A DNA stretch of 35,949 nucleotides, from positions 1 through 35,949 of IMG/VR virus record IMGVR_UViG_3300030116_005896, one strand, 5' to 3'. The notes below the pieces were generated by a model, which did not search any database, had not been told where the DNA came from, and saw only the letters and a list, made by a program, of their open reading frames with translations. Made by a program: the position numbers and the translations under genes. Positions 529 through 16,710 of the stretch are shown in pieces (the first letter of the stretch is position 1; each line of letters begins with the position of its first letter). Source of the stretch: a virus.

Positions 529-1386
529 TTAGTTACCCTGAACGTATTCAGTGTAGAGTTTTCGACCTTCATCAGACTTCATCACAACGTCGTATGCTTT
601 CGCATAAGATACGCCAGGGTTCTCTGAGCAGTGCTTCTGCGCCAGAGCATCAAGCTGATTAAGAGGATCTTTGCCGCCTTGATCTTGAGCAGTCACGCCA
701 GCTTCAACGAAGAGTTCACTCTTCGAGATAACCTGACTAACAGTCTTGAGAAGACCTTCGATCTTCTGAGCTGCTTCCGCGTCATGGCTATGAAGCGACT
801 TGACCATAAGACCAAGCTCGTCTGCTGTATGGCCAGGGATGTTCCCGTAGCTCTTAGCAGCTTTCTCAATAAACTCTTTGGTGAGACGCTCGTCGCGCTC
901 AGCCTTGAGAACCTCTTCGAGTTCCGCTGCTTTCTTTACAGCTTCCTCGTTTGCCTTCCAAAGATTCTCAACTTGAGCGCGTACCTCATCAGGGATGTCA
1001 TTCATATTGATTGAATCTTCAGAAGACTTTTCCATTGCGACATCTTCTTGTGCCATAGGAGTCTCCTGTACTTCTTCCGGTTTTTCGAAATCGAGAAGCG
1101 TAGCCAAAGCGACCAACGCATCCTTCATCCCTGTTTCATCCTTGTACGCCTGAACAATTCTCATCGCTCCGATGAGTCCGTGTCGTGCGTCGTCGGTCAG
1201 TTCTTTACTCACCAGAGCTTCAACCACCTCAGTCTCTTGCTCCAGTGGGACATCGATAATGTCTTTAATAATGTCGTTCATTTGTTCTGCTTTCCTAATA
1301 GCAAACACACGCTGATTAGCGCCCTTATCCACGAGGGACACTTCTACAGTATCTAGATCGATCAGCGTATTGACGGTATCTTCCAT
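529..1386 (-). CDS. Probable prohead scaffold protein
   Basis: A 285-residue, highly charged, mostly helical protein. Residues 1-40 (LDTVEVSLVDKGANQRVFAI) match the short N-terminal tag often seen at the start of XkdF-linked head proteins. Residues about 125-175 form a Glu/Lys/Ala coiled coil, and the C-terminal 60 residues are another helical region. A helical charged protein between the protease and the capsid gene is the classic scaffold position, and the adjacent XkdF-type protease would remove it during head maturation. It is preceded by a 163-base gap carrying two promoter candidates, so it probably heads a highly expressed scaffold-decoration-capsid transcript. The scaffold role is inferred from position and composition. 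Confidence 0.65.
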   Translation of the reverse strand: MEDTVNTLIDLDTVEVSLVDKGANQRVFAIRKAEQMNDIIKDIIDVPLEQETEVVEALVSKELTDDARHGLIGAMRIVQAYKDETGMKDALVALATLLDFEKPEEVQETPMAQEDVAMEKSSEDSINMNDIPDEVRAQVENLWKANEEAVKKAAELEEVLKAERDERLTKEFIEKAAKSYGNIPGHTADELGLMVKSLHSHDAEAAQKIEGLLKTVSQVISKSELFVEAGVTAQDQGGKDPLNQLDALAQKHCSENPGVSYAKAYDVVMKSDEGRKLYTEYVQGN

Positions 1387-1413
1387 AAACCCGCAGTCCT
1401 TTGCGAATGAACA

Positions 1414-1438
1414 TAAATATACTGGTGCTTTGAATCAG
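1414..1438 (-). promoter_or_regulatory. Late-promoter-like element upstream of scaffold gene
   Basis: Read on the minus strand: CTGATTCAAA, a 7-base spacer, then TATATTTA. The same two-part arrangement with the same spacer lies before terL (6631-6655), and with an 11-base spacer before terS (7127-7155). A related CTGATTTAAA without a TATA part lies at 1451-1460. The resemblance of TATAAATA to T4-type late promoters is noted, but no late sigma factor is seen in this window. Confidence 0.5.
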
Positions 1439-1494
1439 CTAAGGTGGGACTTTAAATCAGTCTATGTGTGAGCAATTAAATCTACTCAAATAGA

Positions 1495-1523
1495 ATTGTA
1501 AAGAAATCTTTAGTTTTCGTCAA
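1495..1523 (-). promoter_or_regulatory. Sigma70-like promoter for scaffold-capsid transcript
   Basis: On the minus strand TTGACG (1518-1523) and TACAAT (1495-1500) are separated by exactly 17 bases, which is close to the sigma70 consensus. The sequence is in the AT-rich gap between the protease and scaffold genes and points at the scaffold, decoration and capsid genes. It would allow the abundant head proteins to be made in excess over terminase, portal and protease. Confidence 0.6.
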
Positions 1524-1549
1524 GTTAGTAAAGACTTCTTTGTTTTTGA

Positions 1550-3799
1550 CTAGCTTCTTGTTGGGGGTGCAAATGAGTTACCCCCCTCTGGACCCCTATT
1601 ATAAGGTGTATCTACTGTGGCCGTAGGCTCCCCTTCTAACCTATCCGCTAGTGATGGTGGCCGGGGGGCTTGCATTGTGTGGTATGTAATATTCGGTAGC
1701 TCGGATTTCTTTCGCTCGATACGATGGCCATAGCCACCAATACTGAACCCAGTAATAGAGCCGTCCATAACAGCCTTATATTCCTCGTCGCCAAGTCTGA
1801 CTCCCATCACCCAGGTACCTGAAGTGATGTAGTCGTCACCAAAGGGAATCCTGTATGAATTATGGTCTTCCCCGGCTAGAGCCTTCCGATAATCCTCATC
1901 GGAAGGATAATGAACTACATATGATTCTACCACCTTAGCGTTTGCTAAGGATGTATGCTGCCTGCCTACCGTTCTGCTCTTCTCCAGATATTTGTGAGCC
2001 GTGTCTTCAATCTCACCAACCGGAACCATATCCCCATGAGCGTCCTCTTCGTCTGGAGATAGAACAGCAGAATAGACAATTCTCTTCGAGTCATCACTCT
2101 TGGTGATCGAGACTTCAAAGTCTTCACTCTGTTTGTCCTCCACATATTTAAACATCGACTTAACTTTGCGACCCACTTCACCAGAGTCTCCGTGGCGACG
2201 CAGTGCGGCAGGATGAGGGAGAGTGAAATCTGCTTTCTCCCCCAGATATTCCTTAGCCACTCTACCCAATGCTACAGTAAGGGTATGTTCATTTGACTTC
2301 TCAGGGTACATATCCGCATATTGTTCTATATCTAAGATATCTACATCTGATTTAACTACACCCATAGGGTCTAGATAACTGTTCTTAAATACAGCTCCGT
2401 CTGGGCCCACCAGAAACTCACGCCTTGCTTTCTCAAGAGGTGTTGGTTCTGCAACTACAAACAGAATATCAGACTTTCCTACGAGCCTAGCCATTTGGTC
2501 TCCCCCACTTATTGGCAGCTTACGTCGAACCATTTCGCGCAATATTAAACGCGCTGCCTTTAACATTCCTAGACGCTTCTCGCCTTTAGTATTTCCCATC
2601 CCATACCACTGCTTCAGACGCTTCCACATCATTCGCAAATCGTGGTCCTCCATATTACGAACTACGTTTGTAGTAATATCGTAGAGACGGATTTGAGGTC
2701 CGCCCCGTTTGCTCCCCGCAGCTTTCTTCGCCTCTTCGCGACGGACAACTGACTCAGACCAACGCTTGCCTGCGTCTCCTCCCCAGAGAAGCCAAGCGAT
2801 GAAACCAGTGGTTGGCTTTGAGTCGCTACCCCATCTGCGCCCTTGAGAGTCAGGCCCCGTCTTCTTGTCGCCCCTGTGTCGGCTGAAGTAAGCTTTCATT
2901 CTCTTAACGGTAGAGTATGAAACTTTCCCTCGCACCAAGTCACGAGCCCTAGCAATACCAGAGCCGATACCCTGCTTGCCCGCTTCCTGTGGAGTTAGAC
3001 CCCCGCGTCCAAACTTCTCACGAAGTCGGAGACCTCTGCGAGCAGCCGACCGGACATCTTGAGGAACCGTAAAAGACTCCTCCTTCTGCATATGCGTTTC
3101 GATTAGCTCGACTTCCAAAACCTCAGTGGCTTTGTCATGAGGCACAAAACCATCAGGCGGGTTAGCCATGAGCTTCACACCGTCTATGTCATACACCATC
3201 CAGTGATGACCTTCGGGCGCGGGCACCTTAACGGTCTTAGCTTTCTCTAGCTCAATCTCAAGACTCTTCTTCGTAGACCTGGGGTGCCCTTTGGGGAGCA
3301 GGTCATTGTCCGTCACATACTTTGGATTCTTGGGCTTACCCGTAGCCAGCAGTCTTAGGAATGCGTTTACACGTGCTACGGCCCACTGGGTTCGACTCGT
3401 TACGCTAGGTCTATGAGATGTTGAGTACGCCCCAGCACCCCGCCGAAACACAGCTTTGAGTTGACCAAGTGTGGCTCTCTTTGACGGGGTGTCACCGTAC
3501 TTCTTGTTGTGCTCGGCTACTTTATTCTCAAGCGTTTTGATGTTGGCAGGACTGAGAGTAATCTTACCTGATGCTGAACCTGCTGAACCCGGCTTGTTCC
3601 TGCTGCTACCCCGACGACGTTCGCTCGGTTTAGCGGGAGTCTTCGGGTCATCCTTAACTTTGTAGGATGGGCGCTTCTTCAAACGGTTATACTCTGCCTC
3701 TGTTTTGCAGGGATAGAACATACCGTCTTTTCTGTGAACACCTTCACATCCAATGTTACGAGCAACTGCACTAGCTTGTTCAGGAGTCTTGTAAGGCAT
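1550..3799 (-). CDS. Multidomain head protein with C-terminal XkdF-type prohead protease
   Basis: A 749-residue protein. The start at 3799 (MPYKTPEQASAV) is chosen because it has a GAGGAGGAG ribosome site just upstream, and it overlaps the end of the portal gene by 20 bases. Visible parts: residues about 1-40, a short domain seen in phage head proteins; about 80-180, a basic helical domain (KRATLGQLKAVFRRGAGAYS ... ARVNAFLRLL); about 250-350, a domain with RMKAYFSRH and GFIAWLLWGGDAG that also occurs in phage head proteases; about 430-560, unrecognised; about 570-710, the XkdF putative serine protease domain (VYSAVLSPDEEDAHGDMV, YVVHYPSDEDYRKA, SGTWVMGVRLGDEEYKAVMDGSITGFSIGGYG). By family role it would cleave the scaffold and mature the prohead. 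The pile-up of several head domains in one chain is unusual. Confidence 0.78.
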   Translation of the reverse strand: MPYKTPEQASAVARNIGCEGVHRKDGMFYPCKTEAEYNRLKKRPSYKVKDDPKTPAKPSERRRGSSRNKPGSAGSASGKITLSPANIKTLENKVAEHNKKYGDTPSKRATLGQLKAVFRRGAGAYSTSHRPSVTSRTQWAVARVNAFLRLLATGKPKNPKYVTDNDLLPKGHPRSTKKSLEIELEKAKTVKVPAPEGHHWMVYDIDGVKLMANPPDGFVPHDKATEVLEVELIETHMQKEESFTVPQDVRSAARRGLRLREKFGRGGLTPQEAGKQGIGSGIARARDLVRGKVSYSTVKRMKAYFSRHRGDKKTGPDSQGRRWGSDSKPTTGFIAWLLWGGDAGKRWSESVVRREEAKKAAGSKRGGPQIRLYDITTNVVRNMEDHDLRMMWKRLKQWYGMGNTKGEKRLGMLKAARLILREMVRRKLPISGGDQMARLVGKSDILFVVAEPTPLEKARREFLVGPDGAVFKNSYLDPMGVVKSDVDILDIEQYADMYPEKSNEHTLTVALGRVAKEYLGEKADFTLPHPAALRRHGDSGEVGRKVKSMFKYVEDKQSEDFEVSITKSDDSKRIVYSAVLSPDEEDAHGDMVPVGEIEDTAHKYLEKSRTVGRQHTSLANAKVVESYVVHYPSDEDYRKALAGEDHNSYRIPFGDDYITSGTWVMGVRLGDEEYKAVMDGSITGFSIGGYGHRIERKKSELPNITYHTMQAPRPPSLADRLEGEPTATVDTPYNRGPEGGNSFAPPTRS

Positions 3800-7262: not shown

Positions 7263-7321
7263 CCAAAAAGCACTCGTAAAAATAGTATTAGGTGTCGGAG
7301 TTTAGAGCAAGTTTTTAGCTA

Positions 7322-7336
7322 TGACGCAGTGCGTTA
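7322..7336. promoter_or_regulatory. 15-bp palindromic site 1 (operator or iteron candidate)
   Basis: TGACGCAGTGCGTTA, a near-palindrome about a central base. The consensus of the four copies is TGACGCRRTGCGTYA. Confidence 0.55.
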
Positions 7337-7395
7337 ATAGTTGGAAAATTACAAAAATTTTGTGTGAGGTTACTCGCCCGGCTGCGCTGCGCGTG

Positions 7396-7410
7396 TGACG
7401 CGGTGCGTCA
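7396..7410. promoter_or_regulatory. 15-bp palindromic site 2
   Basis: TGACGCGGTGCGTCA. The outer six bases on each side are fully symmetric. Confidence 0.55.
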
Positions 7411-7428
7411 GGAGGTCTGGCGGGTCAA

Positions 7429-7443
7429 TGACGCAATGCGTCA
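7429..7443. promoter_or_regulatory. 15-bp palindromic site 3 (perfect)
   Basis: TGACGCAATGCGTCA, a perfect odd-length palindrome. It begins 33 bases after the start of site 2, about three helical turns, so proteins bound at both would lie on the same face of the DNA. Confidence 0.6.
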
Positions 7444-7559
7444 AACGTACGTCTGACTCAAAAGTAGATAAATTATACCGAACGGTTAGCAGGAAAAAAC
7501 GCTGTAAGTCATTGATATTATTGAAGAAAAAAAAAGATGAAGGGATAAACAAATATCTA

Positions 7560-7588
7560 TTGACTGTAGATATCGTAGGGTGTATCCT
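7560..7588 (+). promoter_or_regulatory. Sigma70-like rightward early promoter
   Basis: TTGACT (7560-7565) and TATCCT (7583-7588) with a 17-base spacer. It faces the first rightward gene, which begins about 185 bases downstream. It lies between palindromic sites 3 and 4, so a protein binding them could regulate it. Confidence 0.45.
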
Positions 7589-7593
7589 AAGGG

Positions 7594-7610
7594 GGCCCCA
7601 GGGTGGGGCC
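7594..7610. repeat. Short GC-rich hairpin in early leader
   Basis: GGCCCC (7594-7599) and GGGGCC (7605-7610) pair perfectly around AGGGT. It lies just after the presumed transcription start of the early promoter, so it would sit at the 5' end of the early leader and might stabilise it. Confidence 0.4.
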
Positions 7611-7625
7611 GAAAAACACACACGG

Positions 7626-7640
7626 AGACGCAATGCGTTA
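7626..7640. promoter_or_regulatory. 15-bp palindromic site 4
   Basis: AGACGCAATGCGTTA matches the family except for the first base and one arm base. It lies about 40 bases downstream of the -10 of the early promoter. Confidence 0.5.
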
Positions 7641-7731
7641 AGGAAAAGTCGAAAAACCTAGTTCTAACACGACACGTGTACACTGCGAGGGGACTCGACG
7701 ACCAAGGCACTATTGCGCCCATTTTAAAACC

Positions 7732-7753
7732 AAATCGCAAAAATTTGCGATTA
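7732..7753 (+). repeat. Intercistronic hairpin copy 1 (C-G type)
   Basis: First member of the 22-bp hairpin family (arms TAATCG[C/T]AA and TT[G/A]CGATTA, 4-base loop). Here the first base is A instead of T, the stem pairs from position 2 to 10, and the variable pair 7/16 is C-G. It precedes the ribosome site AGGAGA of the first rightward gene and is the only copy before that gene. Confidence 0.75.
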
Positions 7754-7773
7754 CCGAAATCAGGAGATTTCAA

Positions 7774-8586
7774 ATGTCTAAAGAGCACAGCAAAGCAGAA
7801 CTCGCATTCGCGAGCCAGGTAAACACAGTCCTCAATGGCTTTTTCAAGCAGTGTTACCCGGAAGCCGCAAGAAAGCGCACCATTTACGGAATCCCTGGCG
7901 AAAAGGGAAATGGCAAGCGTAAGGGTAAGGACTGGACTGACGCGGTGTGTGTGGAACCCAACGACAACGACACGTGTAAGGCTTTCTTCAATCGTACCTA
8001 CACGATTGAAAAAATGGCGCTCCAGGTTCCCATGATTATGGTTCGATTCGGTATTGGTGTTGTCGTTCAGGACCCCAAGAAGGACCGAAAAATTTTCAAG
8101 CTTCCCACAGGGGCTGGTTCTGCAGGGGAAGTCAAGCGAGTCACTGCCAAATGGGAAGGGTCGAAGGCGCGTGAAAAATTTCTCTCGCTTACTTGGATTC
8201 CCTGCCCTACTCGCGGGGCTGAAAAGAAGTCTATGCCTAGTGGGGCTTGCACGCTCAACGGGGCTGCGGCTCGCGTACCATTCGCGGCCCTGGAGACTCA
8301 GCCGGCATTTATGGCGGCCCTGGACAAGGTTCGGGAGCTTGCTAACCAGGCGTCCGATGAGGTCACTCTGGAGCGTACATCGGTACCTGAGGGCGCAGCC
8401 GACCAGGATATTACATTTACCGTCTCAATGACCCCAGACCAGCTGCAAGCCATGTTGGTCAAGATTGTCGAGGTGGAGCAACACAACGCGATTCTAGAGG
8501 GTAAGACCAAGCAGGTAGCCCAAGCTATCGCTGACTCTGCTGACAAGGGGACCGGTGTAGTTACTGAGCTGGCAATTGCGTCTTAA
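7774..8586 (+). CDS. Unknown early protein, 270 residues
   Basis: First gene of the rightward arm, with an AGGAGA site before the ATG and the first hairpin copy just upstream. I recognise no domain. The N-terminal 70 residues are basic (ARKRTIYG, GEKGNGKRKGKDW). The middle contains a hydrophobic stretch MALQVPMIMVRFGIGVVVQ (about residues 79-97). The C-terminal quarter (about 205-262) is helical and acidic (TPDQLQAMLVKIVEVEQHNAILEGKTKQ). Its stop codon TAA is the first triplet of hairpin copy 2. Being first after the early promoter suggests it is made early and abundantly; an early takeover or DNA-binding role is possible but not shown. Confidence 0.8.
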   Translation: MSKEHSKAELAFASQVNTVLNGFFKQCYPEAARKRTIYGIPGEKGNGKRKGKDWTDAVCVEPNDNDTCKAFFNRTYTIEKMALQVPMIMVRFGIGVVVQDPKKDRKIFKLPTGAGSAGEVKRVTAKWEGSKAREKFLSLTWIPCPTRGAEKKSMPSGACTLNGAAARVPFAALETQPAFMAALDKVRELANQASDEVTLERTSVPEGAADQDITFTVSMTPDQLQAMLVKIVEVEQHNAILEGKTKQVAQAIADSADKGTGVVTELAIAS

Positions 8587-8605
8587 TCGCAAAAAATAGC
8601 GATTA
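8584..8605 (+). repeat. Intercistronic hairpin copy 2 (C-G type)
   Basis: The TAA stop of the upstream gene forms the first three bases. Variable pair 7/16 is C-G; position 8/15 is an A-A mismatch. Confidence 0.75.
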
Positions 8606-8647
8606 CACTTTAACCAGGGGGCGCAAGCCCCCGACTAGGGGAAGCAC

Positions 8648-8713
8648 ATGCTCGGATTTACTTGGATTGTAGTTTCAATTTTCGGTCTAACTTGTTGGGA
8701 GGCTGACTACTAA
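8648..8713 (+). CDS. Possible 21-residue hydrophobic peptide
   Basis: ATG at 8648 is preceded by AGGGGAAGCAC, a plausible ribosome site. The peptide MLGFTWIVVSIFGLTCWEAD would span a membrane once. It sits between hairpin copy 2 and the palindrome cluster. The good ribosome site and hydrophobic pattern support it, but at this length chance cannot be excluded. Confidence 0.4.
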   Translation: MLGFTWIVVSIFGLTCWEADY

Positions 8714-8724
8714 CCAGGGGCTTT

Positions 8725-8809
8725 GGTTGCACAGTTGCATGCAGCGTATACCCTATAGGGTATATGCGCTGCATTGCAAGGCACTGCATACTGCATGCAA
8801 CTTGCAACC
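8725..8809. repeat. Palindrome cluster, part A
   Basis: The core is a perfect 18-bp palindrome, TATACCCTATAGGGTATA (8747-8764), flanked by GCAGCG (8741-8746) and CGCTGC (8767-8772). The outer flanks GGTTGCA (8725-8731) and TGCAACC (8803-8809) also pair. The whole can fold as a long imperfect hairpin or cruciform. Four of the nine GTTGCA/TGCAAC hexamers of the cluster are here. Confidence 0.7.
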
Positions 8810-8820
8810 TACTGTAATTG

Positions 8821-8913
8821 TTAAAGATTCTCCAATGAGTTGCATAGCGTTGCACTATAATTGCATTGATTTTCTCGATTTTCGTGCAACGTGTAACTCG
8901 TTGGAATCTTTAA
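8821..8913. repeat. Palindrome cluster, part B
   Basis: The left arm 8821-8855 (starting TTAAAGATTC) and right arm 8884-8913 (ending AATCTTTAA) are inverted repeats with small gaps: TTAAAGATT/AATCTTTAA, CCAA/TTGG, GAGTT/AACTC and CGTTGCAC/GTGCAACG all pair in order. The loop 8856-8883 is AT-rich and begins with TATAAT. Confidence 0.7.
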
Positions 8914-8926
8914 CCTTTTCAGAAGC

Positions 8927-8954
8927 GGTTGCACGCTACCTTTTTCGTGCAACC
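8927..8954. repeat. Palindrome cluster, part C
   Basis: GGTTGCACG (8927-8935) and CGTGCAACC (8946-8954) are perfect inverted repeats around a 10-base pyrimidine-rich loop. This is the simplest of the three structures and again carries the GTTGCA hexamer in both arms. Confidence 0.7.
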
Positions 8955-8970
8955 AACTATAGGCAAAAGC

Positions 8971-8992
8971 TAATCGTAACTTTTTGCGATTA
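8971..8992 (+). repeat. Intercistronic hairpin copy 3 (T-G intermediate)
   Basis: The variable pair 7/16 is T-G, a G-U wobble in RNA, intermediate between the C-G and T-A types. It directly precedes the AGGAG site of the next gene. No gene ends at it. Confidence 0.75.
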
Positions 8993-9006
8993 CAGGAGAT
9001 TAGACG

Positions 9007-9234
9007 ATGAGACGGCTACCATTGGGAACGGTTGACCCCAAGCTTCACCTGAAGCGTGACCTACAGAAGTTGACGCTGGCCTGGGTGCTTTGGCTGGTGC
9101 TCGGATTCATGACAGTGCCTGCTGTTGTCCCCCTCATGCTGGTGTGGGTAGCAGGGTATCAAATCGCGAGCGAGTACATCGCTTATGACAACTTTGGACG
9201 GCTTCGTGCTCGACCGGAAAGGATTCGACGATGA
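9007..9234 (+). CDS. Small membrane protein, two predicted helices
   Basis: A 75-residue protein with basic ends (MRRLPLG ... RLRARPERIRR) and a hydrophobic centre from about residue 23 to 55 (LAWVLWLVLGFMTVPAVVPLMLVWVAG), long enough for a helical hairpin in the inner membrane with both ends in the cytoplasm. The ribosome site AGGAG is 8 bases upstream. It overlaps the next gene by 4 bases (ATGA). No family recognised. Confidence 0.75.
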   Translation: MRRLPLGTVDPKLHLKRDLQKLTLAWVLWLVLGFMTVPAVVPLMLVWVAGYQIASEYIAYDNFGRLRARPERIRR

Positions 9235-9596
9235 CTAAATCGCAAAAAATTAAGATTAAGGTTTCGACCTCAACCGTAAGCATGACGCCTACTCGGCTAG
9301 TAAATCCGAGTAACTATGACAAGCGTGTGAAGAACTCGCGAGCCATGGGTAAGGGTATGTGGGTTCGGCACGACGGTGTAGATTATGGGCTTGTCCCCAC
9401 TGGCACACGTCGAGGGTACTACACTTTTATCGCTACGGGTGATTGTCGGTTCTGGTTCACATTCTACTTCGATGGGCGGGAACAGTTGGACAGTGACATT
9501 GCAGCGGTGGAATCTTGGCGCAAGTTTTTGAAGCGGGTTGGTGCCCCTACCTCAAGTGTAGGTCGCCCATCATTCAACAGAAGGTTCAGAGGTTAA
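9231..9596 (+). CDS. Unknown protein, 121 residues
   Basis: Coupled to the preceding membrane-protein gene by an ATGA overlap. The protein is basic, with a lysine-rich start (MTKSQKIKIK) and a beta-rich centre containing GKGMWVRHDGVDYGLVPTG and YYTFIATGDCRFWFTFYFDGREQL. No family recognised. The codons for residues 2-9 resemble a decayed copy of the hairpin repeat (AAATCGCAAAAAATTAAGA). The stop codon TAA at 9594 begins hairpin copy 4. Confidence 0.75.
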   Translation: MTKSQKIKIKVSTSTVSMTPTRLVNPSNYDKRVKNSRAMGKGMWVRHDGVDYGLVPTGTRRGYYTFIATGDCRFWFTFYFDGREQLDSDIAAVESWRKFLKRVGAPTSSVGRPSFNRRFRG

Positions 9597-9615
9597 TCGC
9601 TAAAATTTGCGATTA
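9594..9615 (+). repeat. Intercistronic hairpin copy 4 (C-G type)
   Basis: Begins with the stop codon of the upstream gene. Pair 7/16 is C-G; position 8/15 is a T-T mismatch. Confidence 0.75.
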
Positions 9616-9631
9616 AACATAGGAGATAGAT

Positions 9632-10132
9632 ATGGATTGTTTCTACAAGATGACGATTAACAACGTTCAGGGTGAGAGTACTCCCCACCAGGTTTCAGAG
9701 ATTGATAAAGGTTTGGAGTGGGTTAACGCTCCCCGCGATGAGCATGGTGTTCTCGTCCCTGTCATGTCTTTGGTAGGGTTCAAGGTGAAGTACATTCTCA
9801 CCCAAGTCCATTACGGACCAGGGCAGGGCTCGCGAACCGACGACCCTTACGCTTTTTCACCTGGCCATGAGGAGCTGAGTGAAAGTGTATCCCTCGAAGA
9901 CTTGGATGGTGATGCCACCATGAGGGGCTTGCACGAGTACTTTAGAAAACACTTCAGCGACTCGGCTATCGAGGAGTATCAGGTTTGTAGGGATGAAAAG
10001 CCCTTTGGCTACGAGCCGGATGGGTTCATGGCTGCGATAACCTACAAGGGTGAACTGTTTGCCAAGATTATGGTCGTGGACTTCGGCGGGCATAATGGCG
10101 AGGCTGTCTACTACATTCCAGCTAATCGTTAA
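9632..10132 (+). CDS. Unknown acidic protein, 166 residues
   Basis: ATG with AGGAGA upstream, 16 bases after hairpin copy 4. The acidic protein has mixed helix and strand character. Recognisable landmarks but no known family: VSLEDLDGDATMRGLHEYFRKHF in the middle and ELFAKIMVVDFGGHNGEAVYYIP at the end. Its stop TAA at 10130 begins hairpin copy 5. Probably soluble and cytoplasmic. Confidence 0.75.
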   Translation: MDCFYKMTINNVQGESTPHQVSEIDKGLEWVNAPRDEHGVLVPVMSLVGFKVKYILTQVHYGPGQGSRTDDPYAFSPGHEELSESVSLEDLDGDATMRGLHEYFRKHFSDSAIEEYQVCRDEKPFGYEPDGFMAAITYKGELFAKIMVVDFGGHNGEAVYYIPANR

Positions 10133-10151
10133 TCGCAACTTTTTGCGATTA
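10130..10151 (+). repeat. Intercistronic hairpin copy 5 (C-G type)
   Basis: Begins with the stop codon of the upstream gene; pair 7/16 is C-G; the loop is CTTT. It is the last C-G-type copy going rightwards. The GAGGAG ribosome site follows 2-3 bases after the 3' arm. Confidence 0.8.
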
Positions 10152-10165
10152 GAGAGGAGATGATG

Positions 10166-10363
10166 ATGGGGCAACGAGAGCTAAACATACAAGCGTGCTT
10201 AGACAAGGCTGCTGAGTTGGAGATTGAGCACCTTAGCTGGTTGTGGGTGAGGGACCGGGAAGGTGCTGAAATCATTAAACTGGAGTGCAAGTGTAAAGCT
10301 GACCACGCAATTCAGTTGGCTTACTATTACCTTAACAAGGCTCTTGTACTTGAGAGAGGATAG
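10166..10363 (+). CDS. Unknown small protein, 65 residues
   Basis: Three consecutive ATG triplets (10160, 10163, 10166) follow GAGGAG; the third has the best spacing, so the protein is taken as MGQRELNIQACLDK. It is a small, mostly helical, slightly acidic protein (AELEIEHLSWLWVRDREGAEIIKLECKCKADHAIQLAYYYLNKAL). No family recognised. The next gene starts 3 bases after its stop. Confidence 0.7.
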   Translation: MGQRELNIQACLDKAAELEIEHLSWLWVRDREGAEIIKLECKCKADHAIQLAYYYLNKALVLERG

Positions 10364-10366
10364 AGA

Positions 10367-10534
10367 ATGTTGAATGTATTGTTAATTTGGTCGTGCATCC
10401 TGCTTTTTCTTAAAGGTTTGCTGCACGGATACTTGGGGGATGTTGGGGGTGCGCTTACACAATGTAGTGTGGCTTGGCTCTCATTCGTTTTGTTTAATTT
10501 ACTTTTTCACATGGAGAACACACACAATGGCTAA
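10367..10534 (+). CDS. Small membrane protein, 55 residues
   Basis: ATG at 10367 follows AGAGAGGATAGAGA, whose AGAGAGG serves as ribosome site within the end of the preceding gene. The peptide has two hydrophobic segments, residues about 2-20 (LNVLLIWSCILLFLKGLL) and 33-47 (CSVAWLSFVLFNLLF), separated by a glycine-rich turn, so it is likely a small inner-membrane hairpin. It ends by overlapping the start of the next gene by 8 bases. No family known; it could be any of the small membrane-active proteins phages make early. Confidence 0.6.
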   Translation: MLNVLLIWSCILLFLKGLLHGYLGDVGGALTQCSVAWLSFVLFNLLFHMENTHNG

Positions 10535-10775
10535 CAACACACAATCACCACGTTTGGACATGGCAAAGCTGGCTCTCGAATCTCTTACTAACCGAAGCCC
10601 TGAGCTAGAGGAGGAGTACCAGGAGTTCGTAGATGATATCCTTGAGGATGAGGATCTTTCTGCGGAGTTCAGCACTGCCATTGAAGTGGCTCAAGAGTTC
10701 TCCCGTAGTTACTCTTTCGCCCCTGGCTGCTCACGTACGGCTCCCGTACTTTGGGACCAGAACACTGAGTGGTAG
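10527..10775 (+). CDS. Unknown acidic protein, 82 residues
   Basis: The start at 10527 is set by GGAGAACACACACA directly upstream; an in-frame upstream extension is ignored because it has no ribosome site and overlaps the membrane-protein gene. The protein is acidic, with the helical stretch LEEEYQEFVDDILEDEDLSAEFSTAIEVAQEF (shown in parts: about residues 25-57). The C-terminus is SFAPGCSRTAPVLWDQNTEW. No family recognised; acidic early phage proteins are sometimes DNA mimics or inhibitors of host enzymes, which is only a possibility here. Confidence 0.7.
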   Translation: MANNTQSPRLDMAKLALESLTNRSPELEEEYQEFVDDILEDEDLSAEFSTAIEVAQEFSRSYSFAPGCSRTAPVLWDQNTEW

Positions 10776-10842
10776 GGTTGCTTTTTAATAAGTATATTTA
10801 TAGACTATGGGTATAAGCTAACAACTTACCGGGGGATAGAAT

Positions 10843-10944
10843 ATGAATGTTGTGGGTATCGTTGAGGTGGTGAATCAGGTTGCCTTGCCTGCGGGGCTTG
10901 GCTTTTTCGGACTATGGATGTCAGGAATTTTCAAACCGCACTGA
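10843..10944 (+). CDS. Possible 33-residue hydrophobic peptide
   Basis: ATG at 10843 follows GGGGGATAGA. The peptide is hydrophobic (MNVVGIVEVVNQVALPAGLG, then FFGLWMSGIFKPH) and could lie in the membrane. It is the only open frame with a ribosome site in the 304 bases between 10775 and 11080. The short length keeps confidence low. Confidence 0.4.
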   Translation: MNVVGIVEVVNQVALPAGLGFFGLWMSGIFKPH

Positions 10945-10994
10945 TGTTCACACCTGGGTCACGTGGGTAAACTGACCCCCAATCGATCGAGGCT

Positions 10995-11016
10995 TAATCG
11001 TAACTTTTTACGATTA
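10995..11016 (+). repeat. Intercistronic hairpin copy 6 (T-A type)
   Basis: First copy of the T-A type, with the same CTTT loop as copies 3 and 5. It is not fused to a stop codon; the nearest gene end is 50 bases upstream. Confidence 0.8.
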
Positions 11017-11079
11017 CCTCAAAAAACTTTGCCAGATGTTGCTCTGGCTGTCCCTCTACTAGGTAGGTAGGAGAAACAC
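11017..11079 (+). promoter_or_regulatory. Duplicated leader, copy 1
   Basis: After hairpin copy 6 comes AAAACTTTGCCAGAT, then CTACTAGGT, then AGGAGAAACACATG. The leader after hairpin copy 9 has AAAACTTTTGTCAGAT, CTACTAAGT and AGGAGACATACATG in the same order. A small perfect hairpin GCCAGA/TCTGGC (11031-11048) is present only in this copy. Confidence 0.5.
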
Positions 11080-11628
11080 ATGACGAATGAAGATGTTCAA
11101 AATCTCAAGAACCAACTGCGACGAGATCAGCACTTTGCAATCATTGAATTATACAAGGATTGCCAGATGCATGAAGATGAAGTCGTCAGGGTTATCGGGT
11201 GCTTCAATTTTGAAGACATCGGCCTGGCACTCAAGCATCTTGAGCGTGTCGAGAAGGAAGAGAATGGGGGCAGTATATACGACCGCTTCACGGTTGAGTT
11301 CCCAGACTTAAAAGCTCGCAGGACAGAGCTATACTTCGACCGTCATTGGGGTATCAGCCAGAACACTGAGGCTCTGAACCTTGAGTTTGTTTTCAATGGT
11401 TCTGACCATTGGATGAATGAAGACGACTTCAGGGATGACTTCATAGAATTCATCCGGTCCGAGGTATCGGACTACTATCAGAGTACACGTGGGCTGATGT
11501 CTGCGACTGTAGACTTCGAGTTTAAAGAGGGCACCACCTTTGGTGCTGTGGTGGTAACTCCACACAACAACATGGGCAAGCCTCACGGGCCCCACACAAA
11601 CGAGTTTATTCTGAATCCAAACTGGTAA
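11080..11628 (+). CDS. Unknown acidic protein, 182 residues
   Basis: The strong AGGAGA site and ACACATG leader support the start. The acidic protein has a helical N-terminal half (residues 1-65: LKNQLRRDQHFAIIELYKD, LALKHLERVEKEENGG) and a beta-rich C-terminal half with DRHWGISQNTEALNLEFVF and HWMNEDDFRDDFIEFIRSE. No family recognised. It ends in the TAA that opens hairpin copy 7. Confidence 0.75.
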   Translation: MTNEDVQNLKNQLRRDQHFAIIELYKDCQMHEDEVVRVIGCFNFEDIGLALKHLERVEKEENGGSIYDRFTVEFPDLKARRTELYFDRHWGISQNTEALNLEFVFNGSDHWMNEDDFRDDFIEFIRSEVSDYYQSTRGLMSATVDFEFKEGTTFGAVVVTPHNNMGKPHGPHTNEFILNPNW

Positions 11629-11647
11629 TCGTAATTATTTACGATTA
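11626..11647 (+). repeat. Intercistronic hairpin copy 7 (T-A type)
   Basis: Begins with the stop codon of the upstream gene; loop TTAT. The next gene has only a weak ribosome site (AGGG), so the hairpin does not always accompany a strong one. Confidence 0.8.
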
Positions 11648-11663
11648 GATATAGGGTATAGAC

Positions 11664-12125
11664 ATGAGAGATAGACTAAGATATGGCCGCGTGCGTGGCG
11701 AGGAAGAGCGCAACTTCAAGGACTCCGAGCTTGCGATGCTTGAGGAGATTGAAGAGCACGAGTGGTTCTTTGGTAAGTTGAAAACTGCGAAGGAGTTGGA
11801 GGAGGACGACGCTTGGGATCGTCACGATGACTTCCGCTCCTGGGAAGGGTGGGACGGACCCCGTTCTTACGACTGGTTCGATGACTGTTTCTACATTGAG
11901 GGGGAGCGTCACGAGTACCAGGAGGACGGGCCTGTTGAGTGCAGAGACCTGGCATTCGAAGCAATGGAGAGCAATCTCTCCAAGCTTGCCACGAAGATGG
12001 AGCGGGACTTTCAGGTAGAGGTCCAGCAGTACCAGCTTCGTGCTGATGAGATTCTAACTGACTGGGAAACTATGGAGCAGACCATGATGCGGGAGCATCT
12101 GGAGCGATTGGATAACGCCGCTTAA
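11664..12125 (+). CDS. Unknown very acidic protein, 153 residues
   Basis: A strongly acidic protein rich in Asp, Glu and Trp. Residues about 50-80 read DDAWDRHDDFRSWEGWDGP, and the motif AWD[R/Q]HD[D/E] recurs in the 49-residue protein at 12373, so the two may be related. The C-terminal 55 residues form a helix (LEEAME-type, ending HLERLDNAA). Such acidic early proteins can mimic DNA, but nothing specific is seen. It ends with the TAA of hairpin copy 8. Confidence 0.75.
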   Translation: MRDRLRYGRVRGEEERNFKDSELAMLEEIEEHEWFFGKLKTAKELEEDDAWDRHDDFRSWEGWDGPRSYDWFDDCFYIEGERHEYQEDGPVECRDLAFEAMESNLSKLATKMERDFQVEVQQYQLRADEILTDWETMEQTMMREHLERLDNAA

Positions 12126-12144
12126 TCGTAAAAATTTACGATTA
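12123..12144 (+). repeat. Intercistronic hairpin copy 8 (T-A type)
   Basis: Begins with the stop codon of the upstream gene. The ribosome site AGGAGA starts one base after the 3' arm. Confidence 0.8.
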
Positions 12145-12158
12145 AAGGAGAGACACAC

Positions 12159-12371
12159 ATGACTGAATCAGAAATGTACCGAAGACAAGCAGCGGACAAG
12201 CTTCGCATCGCTGACCTCTTGGACCAGAACAAGAAGTTGAAGCAGCACCTCGCACACCACAATCAACCAGAGGAGGAGCCGACTGTTACCTACAACTTCT
12301 TCGGCATCCTCGTGTTCATCGGTTTGTTGGGTGGTGGTGCGTACTACTACCTTTTTGAAGTGGGGTTCTAA
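12159..12371 (+). CDS. Single-span membrane protein with coiled N-terminus, 70 residues
   Basis: Residues 1-40 are a charged helix (MYRRQAADKLRIADLLDQNKKLKQHL). Residues about 47-66 are a hydrophobic, glycine-rich membrane span (FFGILVFIGLLGGGAYYYLF). The charged N-terminus is likely cytoplasmic. The start is supported by AGGAGAGACACACATG. The next gene begins 1 base after its stop, so the two are likely coupled. Family unknown. Confidence 0.75.
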   Translation: MTESEMYRRQAADKLRIADLLDQNKKLKQHLAHHNQPEEEPTVTYNFFGILVFIGLLGGGAYYYLFEVGF

Positions 12372-12372
12372 T

Positions 12373-12522
12373 ATGACGAAGGAAGAGCAGGAAAACCTGG
12401 CCTGGGACCAGCATGACGAGTGGGCTTGGGAACAGTGGGAATTTCTTAACTTTTTCAGAGATGAAGAAGAAGAGGCTTCTTACGAGCAACGGGCTAGAGA
12501 ACTAGCTCAGGAAAAAACCTAA
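12373..12522 (+). CDS. Unknown acidic protein, 49 residues
   Basis: The start is placed at 12373, immediately after the previous stop, because the in-frame upstream extension lies inside the previous gene. The very acidic peptide contains AWDQHDEWAWEQWEFLNFFRDEEEE. The segment AWDQHDE-WAWEQW resembles AWDRHDDFRSWEGW in the protein at 11664, suggesting a shared motif or duplication. Its TAA opens hairpin copy 9. Confidence 0.65.
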   Translation: MTKEEQENLAWDQHDEWAWEQWEFLNFFRDEEEEASYEQRARELAQEKT

Positions 12523-12541
12523 TCGTAATTTTTTACGATTA
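12520..12541 (+). repeat. Intercistronic hairpin copy 9 (T-A type)
   Basis: Begins with the stop codon of the upstream gene; T-rich loop. It is followed by the second copy of the duplicated leader. Confidence 0.8.
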
Positions 12542-12601
12542 GAGAAAAACTTTTGTCAGATTCGGGAGGGTCACCGAGTCCTACTAAGTGAGGAGACATA
12601 C
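12542..12601 (+). promoter_or_regulatory. Duplicated leader, copy 2
   Basis: Contains AAAACTTTTGTCAGAT, then CTACTAAGT, then AGGAGACATACATG, matching in order and spacing the leader at 11017-11079. Confidence 0.5.
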
Positions 12602-13600
12602 ATGATGATACTACCACAAAACTCTACATACGTAGTCAACACACTTCGGAACACCCGTGATGGGTTGGACAAATGCTTTGAAAACCGTGACCGTTTTATG
12701 GGTGTAGGTCTAAGCGCAGACATGTCCCCGTTCGCAGATGAGGGAGTGAAGCCAGGGCAAACCATTGAATTCTGGTGGCTTCTTCAGGATACGCGGAAGC
12801 TAGAGCTAATCCTTGACTACGGGCTGGTCAATGACCCAGACGCTGAGGTTCAAGAGGAGGAGCTTGAGCCTATGATTAGGAGAGCCTTTGAAATTTCTGA
12901 GGATTTTATTTCCACTGTCACTGAGGATGAGTGGGTAAACCTCTTCGATATTCTGGACCATGAGGATTTGAATAGGATACCCCACCAACACTGCAACGAG
13001 GAGGAGATAGAGGACTGGTTGCAAGGTAGATTCTACTACGGGTGTACCTACGACATGTTTGTAAAACACTTTCCAAAGGACTCGGTTGCACGGGAGCCAC
13101 TTCTGGAGAGGTTCAAGGCGAACATTGATAAGCTGGATAAAGCCCTCTGGGATGGTTCCGCTACCATGATCCTCACTCTAAGTGAGTGGGAGTCTTGGAG
13201 AGTCCACTGGTACGTAAATTTCGGTACAAAAGGGGGCTGTGCTTTTTTAGAGCAGGAGTCTGGGCGGGACCGCTACACGCAGTGGGATATTGTGACGCAG
13301 TATCTGTTCATGGGCCAGGTGTTCGACCAGCCAATACCTATGGCAGTCAAATTAGCGCAAGAGGTTTTCGGGGAACGAATAGTAGCAACAAGGTCACAGC
13401 TGTTTAACTTTGTCTTGGATGTCGAGGAGGCTATCGGCATTTTGGATAGAGGTGTTTGGGTTAACAGTCGTTTGCCAGCGGATGTTAGTTATAAGCTGAT
13501 GCAACTCTATGCTGAGAGTGAGTTAAAGCGTTTTGATAGGCAGTCAGAGGAAAAGAAAAAGGAACTGAGAGAACTGGCAGTAGCACAATACAAAAGCTAA
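12602..13600 (+). CDS. Unknown protein, 332 residues
   Basis: The largest gene of the small-gene cluster. ATG at 12602 (a second ATG follows directly) has GAGGAGA upstream. The acidic protein has many helices: EEELEPMIRRAFEISEDFISTV near 85-105, EDEWVNLFDILDHEDLNRI near 107-125, and a C-terminal helix SELKRFDRQSEEKKKELRELA. Trp- and Glu-rich, with no motif I can tie to a known enzyme. Its TAA is the start of hairpin copy 10. Size, acidity and position suggest an accessory or takeover protein, but no function can be assigned. Confidence 0.8.
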   Translation: MMILPQNSTYVVNTLRNTRDGLDKCFENRDRFMGVGLSADMSPFADEGVKPGQTIEFWWLLQDTRKLELILDYGLVNDPDAEVQEEELEPMIRRAFEISEDFISTVTEDEWVNLFDILDHEDLNRIPHQHCNEEEIEDWLQGRFYYGCTYDMFVKHFPKDSVAREPLLERFKANIDKLDKALWDGSATMILTLSEWESWRVHWYVNFGTKGGCAFLEQESGRDRYTQWDIVTQYLFMGQVFDQPIPMAVKLAQEVFGERIVATRSQLFNFVLDVEEAIGILDRGVWVNSRLPADVSYKLMQLYAESELKRFDRQSEEKKKELRELAVAQYKS

Positions 13601-13619
13601 TCGTAAATAGTTACGATTA
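13598..13619 (+). repeat. Intercistronic hairpin copy 10 (T-A type)
   Basis: Begins with the stop codon of the upstream gene; loop ATAG, identical over all 22 bases to copy 11. GGGGAGA follows directly. Confidence 0.8.
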
Positions 13620-13632
13620 GGGGAGAACACAC

Positions 13633-13893
13633 ATGACTAACCTACCCAAGATCATCAAGGACTTAGAGACATTTCTGATATGCGACTGCGGGCATGCTTA
13701 CGTGGGGGGCGAAGGTCTCCGAATCATGAACATGTTGCACGAACTCCGTACCCAACTCATCAAGATGCAGGAGGATGTGTCTGACATCTGTGTTGAAGAC
13801 TTAGGCATGGGTTACCGTGGCATAGACGGCGCACGCCTTGATTCACTAGACAACCGATTCGAGGAAATTCTCTACGAGGAGAAGAGCAAATGA
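13633..13893 (+). CDS. Unknown small protein, 86 residues
   Basis: GGGGAGAACACACATG start. The acidic helical protein has a small CDCGHAYVGGEG segment near residue 18-29 (two Cys and one His, too few for a clear zinc site) and a long helix LRIMNMLHELRTQLIKMQED. It overlaps the next gene by 4 bases (ATGA), implying coupled translation. No family recognised. Confidence 0.7.
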   Translation: MTNLPKIIKDLETFLICDCGHAYVGGEGLRIMNMLHELRTQLIKMQEDVSDICVEDLGMGYRGIDGARLDSLDNRFEEILYEEKSK

Positions 13894-14366
13894 CCCCGGC
13901 TGAAGAGATTGAAAAGCTATCCGCTCAGGTTAAACGCCAGAGAGCTGGGCATAAGAAAACGAACAAAGAACTCAAGGAGGAGAAGGCTCGCTACTCAGTG
14001 CTGGCATCTGAGTACAACCTAGTGCTGGAGGAGTTGAAATCTTTAAAGAATAGCAGACCTCTTGCACACATAGGGAGGCAGAAGTTAGAGATCGACTCCC
14101 TCAAGAAAGAGATGGACTCCCTCATAGAGCAGATTGACAATTTAAAAGATGCTCGTGAGATAGACCGCCAAGATAGAGAATACGCTGAGGCAGATTGGGC
14201 CCATAAAAACAAACTCCTGCAAGACAGGATAGATAAACTCACGGATAAACTGGGCCAAGAATTCGAACAAAACCGAAGCATAAAGAAGACAATTTTGAAG
14301 ACACACATCCCAGAAAACCTCCATGGTTTCTTGGAAGAACTATCAGGAGACTCATCATATGAGTGA
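13890..14366 (+). CDS. Coiled-coil protein, 158 residues
   Basis: Almost the whole chain (residues about 3-140) shows heptad-like helix with many Lys, Glu and Leu (EEIEKLSAQVKRQRAGH, LKKEMDSLIEQIDNLKDAR, LLQDRIDKLTDKLGQEFEQN), so it should form a long coiled coil, probably dimeric. It overlaps the genes on both sides (ATGA at the front, 8 bases at the end) and is part of a three-gene coupled set. Function unknown; a structural or scaffold-like partner for its neighbours is possible. Confidence 0.75.
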   Translation: MTPAEEIEKLSAQVKRQRAGHKKTNKELKEEKARYSVLASEYNLVLEELKSLKNSRPLAHIGRQKLEIDSLKKEMDSLIEQIDNLKDAREIDRQDREYAEADWAHKNKLLQDRIDKLTDKLGQEFEQNRSIKKTILKTHIPENLHGFLEELSGDSSYE

Positions 14367-14640
14367 AGCAAGCAAAGAAGAGATGGAACATCAGGTTACG
14401 ACCATGATTGAGATTTACAACAAAGCTTTGAAGTACTCAGAGGACAACGTGGCTACTCATCAAACGCCACCAGATATCCCTGCGTACTTGATGGCATGCC
14501 ACGGAATCGCAGAGTACCTTGAGATTAATGAATTCAGTCCTGAGTCTCTGAAGGATTTGGAGAATGCTTTCTCTGGCATTATCAACCGTTACCTTAATTC
14601 GAATCTAACTGAGATTCCTATCGACCCATCGCTAAACTAG
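14359..14640 (+). CDS. Unknown small protein, 93 residues
   Basis: The start at 14359 has AGGAGA upstream inside the preceding gene and overlaps its stop. Acidic and mainly helical (SKEEMEHQVTTMIEIYNKAL, LKDLENAFSGIINRYLN). No family recognised. It ends with TAG one base before hairpin copy 11, one of the few cases where the stop lies just outside the element. Confidence 0.7.
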   Translation: MSEASKEEMEHQVTTMIEIYNKALKYSEDNVATHQTPPDIPAYLMACHGIAEYLEINEFSPESLKDLENAFSGIINRYLNSNLTEIPIDPSLN

Positions 14641-14641
14641 T

Positions 14642-14663
14642 TAATCGTAAATAGTTACGATTA
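14642..14663 (+). repeat. Intercistronic hairpin copy 11 (T-A type)
   Basis: Identical to copy 10, including the ATAG loop. The upstream gene stops at TAG just before it, not within it. Confidence 0.8.
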
Positions 14664-14688
14664 AGACTTTTACTTAGGAGAAATACAC

Positions 14689-15126
14689 ATGACTACAAAG
14701 ACACCTAATGGCCTCCGTATTGCGCATGACGACCACGGTCTGTCTGCTGAACACCTCGCTGTGATTGACGCAGCATTCGAAGGAGAGACCGGTTTCGTCC
14801 TGAAGCTGGTGACTCTCCCCGAGGGAGCACCTGACCTGTCTTCGGCTCTGTATGGGCCAGCTGCGGGGGATGCCCCTCTTAGTGAGGATATGGTATTCTA
14901 CGAGGTGCGCAACGACCGGCCAGGTCCTAGCCGCCTGGTGCGTAAACCTCATCGGCCTTGCCGCAACATGGTTGTTGTTGGCCTGGCAGACCAGGGCATC
15001 GTGTTCACTGCGTACGGGACTCAGGCGGATGCCCCGTCTCCCCGTGAGTGGTGGGACACGAGCATGAAGCCGCATGAGGCAGTGGAGGCTTCGAAGTTCT
15101 GGAGCGCACACGCTCTGGCTGAGTGA
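14689..15126 (+). CDS. Conserved phage-type protein of unknown function, GC-rich gene
   Basis: A 145-residue protein. I recognise the pattern of a widespread but unnamed phage protein: LYGPAAGDAPLSEDMVFYEVR near 52-72, PSRLVRKPHRPCRNMVVV near 80-98, VFTAYGTQ and PSPREWW near 105-124, and an ending like FWSAHALAE. Function unknown. The gene is visibly richer in G and C than its neighbours, with many third-position C/G, which suggests a separate origin. AGGAGAAATACACATG supports the start. It is followed after 10 bases by a small Cys-rich protein gene. Confidence 0.75.
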   Translation: MTTKTPNGLRIAHDDHGLSAEHLAVIDAAFEGETGFVLKLVTLPEGAPDLSSALYGPAAGDAPLSEDMVFYEVRNDRPGPSRLVRKPHRPCRNMVVVGLADQGIVFTAYGTQADAPSPREWWDTSMKPHEAVEASKFWSAHALAE

Positions 15127-15136
15127 GGGGCACGTT

Positions 15137-15508
15137 ATGGAAAAGCAAGAGGATTGGGCTTCATTCAGATACCTGCCCACCCCTCTAACCATACAGGGTG
15201 CAAAGGGTACAGCTTCACAAGCTTACAGACATATCATTGAGCTTGAGAATACCCTTAGCGGGTGTGAGTGGTGCTGCGGTGGTGGAGATCAATTGCGAGG
15301 CATGTTGATAGATACCTTGGAGCACAACATCAAATGGCTGAAAAGCCAGGGTGTTGACTTCGTACCACAAGCACCTTGCACCGCATGCTTTCACTATGCA
15401 TCGGTGCCAGGTTCTAACCTGTGTGAGAAATGCAAACCCTTAACAAGTGAGGATGAGCACGACTCAGCTTCACCTGTAACAAGGTACATTAAACTGCGTG
15501 CAGAGTGA
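15137..15508 (+). CDS. Cys-rich, possible zinc-binding protein, 123 residues
   Basis: The start at 15137 follows GAGGGGCACGTT, 10 bases after the previous stop. Residues about 30-60 contain a helix and CEWCCGGGDQLRGML. The C-terminal part has CTACF (about residue 81) and CEKC (about 98), two CxxC pairs that could bind one zinc. No named family recognised. Zinc ribbons of this kind in phage early proteins often bind nucleic acid or a protein partner. Confidence 0.65.
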   Translation: MEKQEDWASFRYLPTPLTIQGAKGTASQAYRHIIELENTLSGCEWCCGGGDQLRGMLIDTLEHNIKWLKSQGVDFVPQAPCTACFHYASVPGSNLCEKCKPLTSEDEHDSASPVTRYIKLRAE

Positions 15509-15768
15509 TGTCTGCTAGCGGGGGAGTCTGGTACCCCGTGAAGAGAAGGGGTTAATCAACCACACAAACAGGACAATGGTCATCGGTAGGGCCATGAAAA
15601 AAGCGGGTGTCTGTAAAAAAGTGGGGGGTTGCTCCCCTGGCTGAGCTGTTCGGACTTCGAGTTAAACCGAAGGAGGCAATGAAGCAGCAGAGGACTTTCG
15701 AGTCGCCCGCATACCGACAATCGAAACACACATCTAATCGTAAGTTTTTACGATTAAGGAGAACACAC
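15509..15768. other. Gap with a strong in-frame upstream start
   Basis: About 260 bases with no separate gene that I trust. It contains an ATG at 15679 with a perfect AAGGAGG site, in frame with the gene at 15769, and hairpin copy 12 between the two starts. A GTG at 15607 is also in frame (SVKKWGVAPLAELFGL). Confidence 0.5.
15735..15756 (+). repeat. Intercistronic hairpin copy 12 (T-A type)
   Basis: Loop GTTT. AGGAGA follows with no gap. It lies between two in-frame starts, so it would be translated as NRKFLRL if the upstream start at 15679 is used. Confidence 0.8.
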
Positions 15769-16302
15769 ATGAATGCAGCTGAACATCTTGAAGAGTGTAA
15801 GTGGGAAAGACCGTCATCATACGGAGGTCACTCACCTGACGGGGACTATGTAATCTACAGTAGAACCAGGGACAGTAAGATTCTTGGAAACGTAAACTAC
15901 TACAGGATTCTAAAGTGTCTCGAAGTACACGCTAGTAGACTGGATGAGCCGAAGGTTGATGACCCGGAGTACACTTACGTCCGTCCCTGGGTCTACGACT
16001 TTCGCGCCAGTCACTGGGGATGCGGGTGGGTAGAGCACATCGTTATCCGCAAGGATGCGCCTGACTGCCTACTCAAACTTGCCGGTGAGATTTACTGCTG
16101 CATGCAGGAGTACCCGGTGTTCGATGATTCGGCTTATTCGGAGGCTTGCTACAATGCTATCTGCGAGCACTGGGAAGGGTGCAGTATTGATGAGCGTATC
16201 ACGTACTGCAAAGACTCTAAGGTTTCCATTCTGGCTTCACGGCGTGATGAGATACCTTGTGAAGTTTACAACCTGTTGGCCCAACAACCGGAGTTTATGT
16301 GA
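15769..16302 (+). CDS. Conserved phage-type protein of unknown function, 177 residues
   Basis: The start at 15769 has AGGAGAACACACATG. Upstream in-frame starts at 15679 (with an excellent AAGGAGG) and 15607 would add 30 or 54 residues by reading through hairpin copy 12. The protein has a pattern I know from other phage proteins without a known role: WVYDFRASHWGCGWVEHIVI (about residues 70-89), LAGEIYCCMQEYPVFDDSAYSEA (about 101-123), and SILASRRDEIPCEVYNLL near the end. It overlaps the next gene (TGATG). Probably soluble. Confidence 0.7.
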   Translation: MNAAEHLEECKWERPSSYGGHSPDGDYVIYSRTRDSKILGNVNYYRILKCLEVHASRLDEPKVDDPEYTYVRPWVYDFRASHWGCGWVEHIVIRKDAPDCLLKLAGEIYCCMQEYPVFDDSAYSEACYNAICEHWEGCSIDERITYCKDSKVSILASRRDEIPCEVYNLLAQQPEFM

Positions 16303-16493
16303 TGCCAGAAAACTTTGAACTTGAGGCGTTTAGGAAGAAGGTGCTCGAAGAACTGTTCGAAATAGGCAAGCGGGTCCGTGCTATCGAATCAGATGCAGAC
16401 AACTTAGCGTGGTCTATTTCAGAGCTTGAGGATGAGCTTGTAGAGTTCTTTGAGAAGTCAGAGGAAGAGGAAGAGGAAGAAGAGGAAGAGTAA
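16302..16493 (+). CDS. Small acidic protein with poly-Glu tail, 63 residues
   Basis: The start ATG at 16302 shares a base with the upstream stop. It is a helical protein (FELEAFRKKVLEELFEIGKR) ending in ten consecutive glutamates. The GAGGAAGAGGAAGA repeat that encodes the tail is also the ribosome binding region for the next gene, whose ATG overlaps the stop (TAATG). No family recognised. Confidence 0.7.
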   Translation: MPENFELEAFRKKVLEELFEIGKRVRAIESDADNLAWSISELEDELVEFFEKSEEEEEEEEEE

Positions 16494-16678: not shown

Positions 16679-16697
16679 TCGTAAAAAGTTACGATTA
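16676..16697 (+). repeat. Intercistronic hairpin copy 13 (T-A type)
   Basis: Begins with the stop codon of the upstream gene; loop AAAG. AGGAGA follows directly. Confidence 0.8.
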
Positions 16698-16710
16698 AGG
16701 AGAAACACAC

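Follow-up and report, generated by a model that had tools for sequence, protein, structure and literature searches.

To our knowledge, replication origins have been mapped for few phages that encode their own Prim-Pol/helicase. Phage P4 alpha, like SaPI/PICI Rep and SCCmec Cch2, is a self-loading initiator helicase with an iteron origin. Complementary repeats in phages can also act as RNA: P4 CI and P1 C4 are structured phage regulatory RNAs of the antisense-type immunity kind. For SaPI Rep and Cch2, the origin-binding domain is placed at the C-terminus (PMC7581432), and SaPI-type origins lie directly downstream of rep (PMC7581432, PMC6092414). For SPP1 oriR, PMC6316719 describes a location between genes and away from that of the initiator, with repeats and a part rich in A+T.

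The window, that is the whole stretch of DNA analysed, is a virus record of 35 949 bases from IMG/VR and is part of the genome of an uncultivated tailed phage. Genes for terminase, portal and head protease, among others, run leftward; those running rightward include a SNF2-type helicase, a primase-helicase, a PD-(D/E)XK nuclease, a Sak4-like protein, an SSB-like protein and a family A polymerase. TerL relatives in IMG/VR include L009 and G001 (TerL 100% identical; 54 675 bases), which looks circularly permuted, because its two ends overlap in window coordinates, and near complete. Searches for the tyrosine integrase and serine resolvase families each matched neither of two records (window and G001). 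A short frame at 23124–23228 matches HTH_3 weakly, at 18.2 bits, which is under the curated cut-off, and G001 has no such match. The element described here belongs to the early region; about 1.6 kb, including one gene, separate it from terS. The features referred to below are the following.

7560–7588, plus strand: promoter-like site TTGACT-17-TATCCT ahead of the early genes, a consensus match only.
8584–8605, no strand: palindrome of the dispersed class, before the micro-ORF.
8648–8713, plus strand: micro-ORF of 21 codons (MLGFTWIVVSIFGLTCWEADY), directly upstream of the element.
8725–8809, no strand: part A, an imperfect hairpin or palindrome with nine TGCA cores, closed by GGTTGCA...TGCAACC; 8734–8773 are identical in G001.
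8747–8764, no strand: TATACCCTATAGGGTATA, a perfect 18-bp palindrome at the tip of part A, invariant in G001 and with one change in L009.
8809–8925, no strand: part B, a long imperfect inverted repeat with four TGCA cores and TATAAT at 8856–8861; 8836–8866 are identical in G001.
8927–8954, no strand: part C, a perfect 9-bp stem (GGTTGCACG/CGTGCAACC, 8927–8935/8946–8954) in which 18 bp separate the final two TGCA cores.
8971–8992, no strand: palindrome of the dispersed class that ends the cassette.
25349–27106, plus strand: primase-helicase (Prim-Pol, PriCT_1 and AAA_25; Pfam, PHROGs) with a predicted C-terminal winged helix at about residues 527–580 (model and fold match), 90% identical in G001.

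An earlier note on this DNA had counted nine GTTGCA hexamers in 8725–8954, and this count was borne out: GTTGCA or its complement TGCAAC occurs at 8726, 8734, 8796(-), 8803(-), 8839, 8849, 8885(-), 8928 and 8948(-). Over the full window, the hexamer is not enriched (22 copies, with 19.7 ± 4.5 expected); nine of these 22 copies fall within 228 bp. When the window was resampled 200 times under a first-order Markov model, the best cluster of any 6-mer contained 7 copies, and none reached 9. The TGCA core occurs 15 times in the element compared to 0.81 expected per 250 bp, and such a TGCA cluster is found once per genome in the window and in G001. The perfect 18-bp palindrome inside a larger stem (stem A, about 8725–8809), the perfect 9-bp stem of part C and the TATAAT inside part B are likewise present as the note had described them. 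For part B, the note had given arms of 30–35 bases, a length that does not hold for ungapped pairing, where the longest arms have 22 nt (8809–8830/8904–8925, 82% complementary); a predicted stem with internal loops does span most of about 8812–8925. A sigma-70 scan found no promoter-like site at this TATAAT, nor elsewhere in or beside the element. Part B is moderately A+T-richer (0.57–0.70 in most 30-base frames), and TGCA sites flank on both sides its stretches 8809–8835 and 8863–8884, which have this moderate A+T content. A scan of viral contigs for TATACCCTATAGGGTATA returned 49 stretches and, besides L009 and the G001 record, none of these has a comparable GTTGCA cluster; thus, the palindrome alone is not diagnostic.

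When window positions 7428–16732 were compared to G001 by blastn (word 7, E up to 1e-3), only 8728–8972, which includes a self-palindromic match, and one dispersed palindrome of 40 bases aligned. The element is 81% identical in G001 without net indels, and the G001 replication genes are 74–97% identical (primase-helicase 88–90%). Among the 226 columns of the element, 46 differ between the two genomes, and the changes affect 4 of 60 TGCA columns compared to 42 of 166 other columns. Furthermore, 13 of the 15 TGCA cores are intact in G001 at the same spacing, which was equalled by none of 20 000 random placements and by none of 225 rotations. In L009, 8582–8818 are 90% identical, up to the end of the contig.

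A second lineage with about 77% TerL identity (L010, L016 and G003, the latter also L078) has a similarly designed stretch at the same place: after a hydrophobic micro-ORF of 21–24 codons and its stop come a short AACCA-N-GGG-like sequence, a hairpin centred on TATAG, further TGCA sites and, at the close, two sites spaced by 19 bp. Since the automatic alignment of all six stretches is poor, we base homology between the lineages on where the stretch lies and how it is built. Apart from gained and lost sites, the site spacing is constant inside each lineage; in part C, the spacing of 18 is kept in G001 and is near 19 in L010, L016 and G003. Changed TGCA columns in three second-lineage pairs number 0/48, 0/44 and 2/52. 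The lineages differ in the bases around the core. In the window, a T precedes TGCA in at least one reading direction at 11 of 15 sites, whereas most second-lineage sites read (A/G)TGCA(C/T) instead of TTGCA, with A or G before TGCA on both sides at 13/14 sites in L010, 12/12 in L016 and 9/11 in L078. More distantly, 17 TerL loci (L079–L095, partial genomes) contain no comparable TGCA cluster, with a maximum of 7 per 250 bp in L094; a TerL search of genome contigs gave no relative, a distant blastn of the element region against phages gave only matches with E about 5, and targeted literature searching found no description of the element. The earlier note had proposed a search for the hexamer array in relatives and had taken a lack of conservation as an argument against its reading; this argument fails, as five relatives carry either the element itself or a stretch built in the same way. 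We conclude that the element is almost certainly a conserved, functional cis element. The TGCA cores are better preserved than the remainder of the element, and therefore an array of protein-binding sites is favoured.

A hydrophobic micro-ORF of 19–24 codons with an RBS-like sequence stands just before it in all five relatives (L009, L017, L010, L016 and L078). The first early gene (window 7774–8586; L009 238–870(-); L017 7950–8903(-); L010 about 1000–1700(-)) is swapped among relatives; the window's gene has no match in G001, and that of L009 also differs. Replacement of first early genes is a pattern seen for counter-defence genes. Searches of viral contigs with the neighbouring genes 7774–8586 and 9231–9596, and of phages by tblastn with 7774–8586, returned nothing useful. 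The window, L009, L010 and L017 have a promoter-like site ahead of the first gene, while the same scan found none there in L016 or G003; early transcription thus likely passes through the element.

The palindromes of the dispersed class occur genome-wide and are exchanged between relatives. The window has fourteen near-identical copies (7733, 8585, 8972, 9595, 10131, 10996, 11627, 12124, 12521, 13599, 14643, 15736, 16677 and 21656), which read TAATCGTAA-N4-TTACGATTA or close variants and mostly lie between a stop codon and the RBS of the next early gene. G001 has 13 palindromes of an unrelated class (TGTCCA...TGGACA) and one of the window class near 20340; those of L010 and L016 read AATGGCCAA..TTGGCCATT, and those of G003 read GGGTGTAA..TTACACCC. 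They are reminiscent of phage stoperators (PMC6550527), although no integrase family was found here, and also of start-associated sequences (PMC3203893). The product of the first early gene was considered as their reader and rejected: by eye, the L009 product (TAATCG class) resembles that of L010, which has another palindrome class. A separate tandem array of GTTGCCATA/TATGGCAAC, with periods of about 10 and 15, lies upstream of the micro-ORF in G001 (L074 8191–8322), L010 (763–872) and L016 (about 1260–1400); none is present in the window, and none was seen in the examined part of G003. In G001, this second array holds 11 GGCAAC compared to 8 GTTGCA in the element, and the element is equalled in folding strength by a hairpin-rich stretch at 8041.

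The earlier note had seen no gene in the element, and our comparison agrees: mismatches between the window and G001 are spread evenly over codon positions (17/15/14). An ORF at 8727–9035 with a TTG start was accordingly rejected as protein-coding; it is open by chance, and the G001 frame contains a stop. As RNA, 8720–8960 folds with -110.2 kcal/mol, a value that none of 200 shuffles reached, and the 240-nt frame at 8701(+) ranks first in folding among 1192 strand-frames in the window. The main rival to an array of DNA sites is a structured plus-strand RNA made from the early promoter, for example a regulatory leader, an antisense-type immunity RNA or a structured 3' part of the micro-ORF transcript, which we consider possible but rather unlikely. 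Folding is extreme and stronger on the plus than on the minus strand in the window (z -11.5 vs -8.2) and L010 (-6.2 vs -4.6), and slightly so in L017 (-6.7 vs -6.3), and the promoter-like site lies upstream of the element in four of six phages. With random substitutions that spare TGCA as the null, the pairs of the plus-strand fold are kept in all four second-lineage comparisons, which are not independent of each other (P 0.003, 0.0004, 0.0004 and 0.0002), whereas the same non-independent comparisons give P 0.40, 0.40, 0.04 and 0.74 for the minus-strand fold. Between the window and L017, however, the plus-strand pairs are not kept (P 0.57 and 0.96). RNAalifold energies are alike on both strands and, in the window lineage, lie between roughly one half and two thirds of what single sequences give. 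Moreover, no Rfam model matches the window at gathering score, a scan found no terminator-like site at the element, and pairing alone leaves unexplained why TGCA is retained while other stem positions drift. Against the same TGCA-sparing substitutions, plus-strand folding strength was equalled in 0/400 cases in both window/L017 directions, from L010 to L016 and from L010 to L078, with values of 0.005 from L016 to L078 and 0.07 from L016 to L010; the minus-strand test gave 0.0025 to 0.16. In most comparisons, folding strength is therefore retained more than chance would allow, and somewhat more so on the strand that is transcribed early. If early transcripts run through the element, this could aid its opening and account for the plus-strand bias with no RNA function in addition. 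It thus seems that the hairpins matter as well as the sites, the sites being what all comparisons have in common.

The same TGCA sites could be bound by an early-region transcription regulator or form a nucleoprotein switch that is no origin, which would agree with the location of the element in the early operon, after the promoter-like site. We find this unlikely, since the dispersed palindromes look more like regulator sites and switch class between the window and G001 while the element stays, and since the scan for promoters gave no hit within the element or next to it. A packaging start (pac/cos) recognised by the small terminase is very improbable. Conservation of the small terminase (95% in G001), a distance of 1.6 kb to its gene and the circular permutation of G001, which would suit headful packaging, speak for it; however, the element stands within the early operon with a gene between it and terS, and a noncoding block beside terS (window 7321–7430, 73% with L010 and L014) is a better candidate. 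This block may be a packaging site or a divergent promoter region. Host DnaA boxes (TTATNCACA, within one mismatch) were rejected, with none in the window and L017 elements and 3–4 in L010, L016 and L078; the packaging and host-DnaA readings both fit worse. Functionless chance or low-complexity sequence can practically be dismissed: GTTGCA is not enriched window-wide and motif counts from a single genome are weak, but the clustering, the folding and the selective conservation inside a replaced region already refute it.

The earlier note had left a choice between an origin, a site for an initiator or regulator and a structured RNA. What these options share, a conserved cis element, stands, and an origin is the best single guess. 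We tentatively read the element as an array of TGCA-cored protein sites in three hairpin-forming palindromes that most likely serves as a remote iteron-type replication origin for the phage primase-helicase. This protein is the proposed reader and initiator, being the best candidate among the replication proteins because of the winged helix expected of an initiator. Its C-terminal winged helix (encoded within 25349–27106) would bind the TTGCA sites, the hairpin-forming, A+T-richer middle (8809–8925) would open, perhaps aided by early transcription, and the helicase would then load, after which the Prim-Pol domain would prime. The conservation of the element between the window and G001 alongside the primase-helicase gene argues for an origin, and so do the C-terminal position of the predicted winged helix, which matches that of the origin-binding domain in SaPI Rep and Cch2, and the precedent of SPP1 oriR. 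Several observations argue against it: the gene starts at 25349, 16.4 kb from the element; the A+T-rich stretches are moderate; the element always follows the micro-ORF, which is dispensable for an origin; and in G001, L010 and L016 the further repeat array that lies before the micro-ORF could equally be an origin. The solved folds nearest to the winged helix are ordinary transcription repressors and do not point to an initiator; the winged-helix model itself has moderate confidence (pLDDT 73.7). A primase-helicase search of viral contigs found only G001 and one relative with 29% identity, and the second-lineage gene was not recovered. GC skew, which the note had suggested as a check for the origin, cannot decide, as it turns at 7003 in the window and at 5808 in G001, tracking gene direction and not the element.

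A site array that survives the replacement of the early region around it is a direct candidate origin, and the natural difference between TTGCA and RTGCAY lineages offers a handle on which protein reads the sites. If the element acts as RNA instead, these phages would share a conserved early RNA that goes together with a micropeptide. It is also conceivable, though distinctly improbable, that a micropeptide gene and a transcribed hairpin-iteron module form an undescribed unit, in which the TGCA palindromes double as primase-helicase DNA sites and early-RNA hairpins, the specificity is switched between TTGCA and RTGCAY, and cores and spacing are fixed per lineage while the early genes around them are replaced.

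When comparing the element to known systems, we find that it shares with P4 CI and P1 C4 the complementary repeats in an early transcribed, untranslated stretch; unlike in these RNAs, the specific pairs are not kept in the window lineage and no Rfam match exists. With the iteron origins of self-loading initiator helicases (SaPI/PICI Rep, SCCmec Cch2), it shares several copies of a short site (nine GTTGCA, 15 TGCA) in noncoding DNA and a phage primase-helicase with a predicted C-terminal DNA-binding fold, whose initiator role is putative. It differs from the SaPI/PICI origins in that the sites lie in three hairpin palindromes and in both orientations, after a micro-ORF and 16 kb from the putative initiator gene instead of adjacent to it. 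Like SPP1 oriR/oriL (PMC6316719), the element is intergenic and has repeats and an A+T-richer part away from the putative initiator gene. In contrast to SPP1, which uses direct repeats and a separate origin-binding protein, loader and DnaB-family helicase, the element combines TGCA palindromes with a fused primase-helicase.
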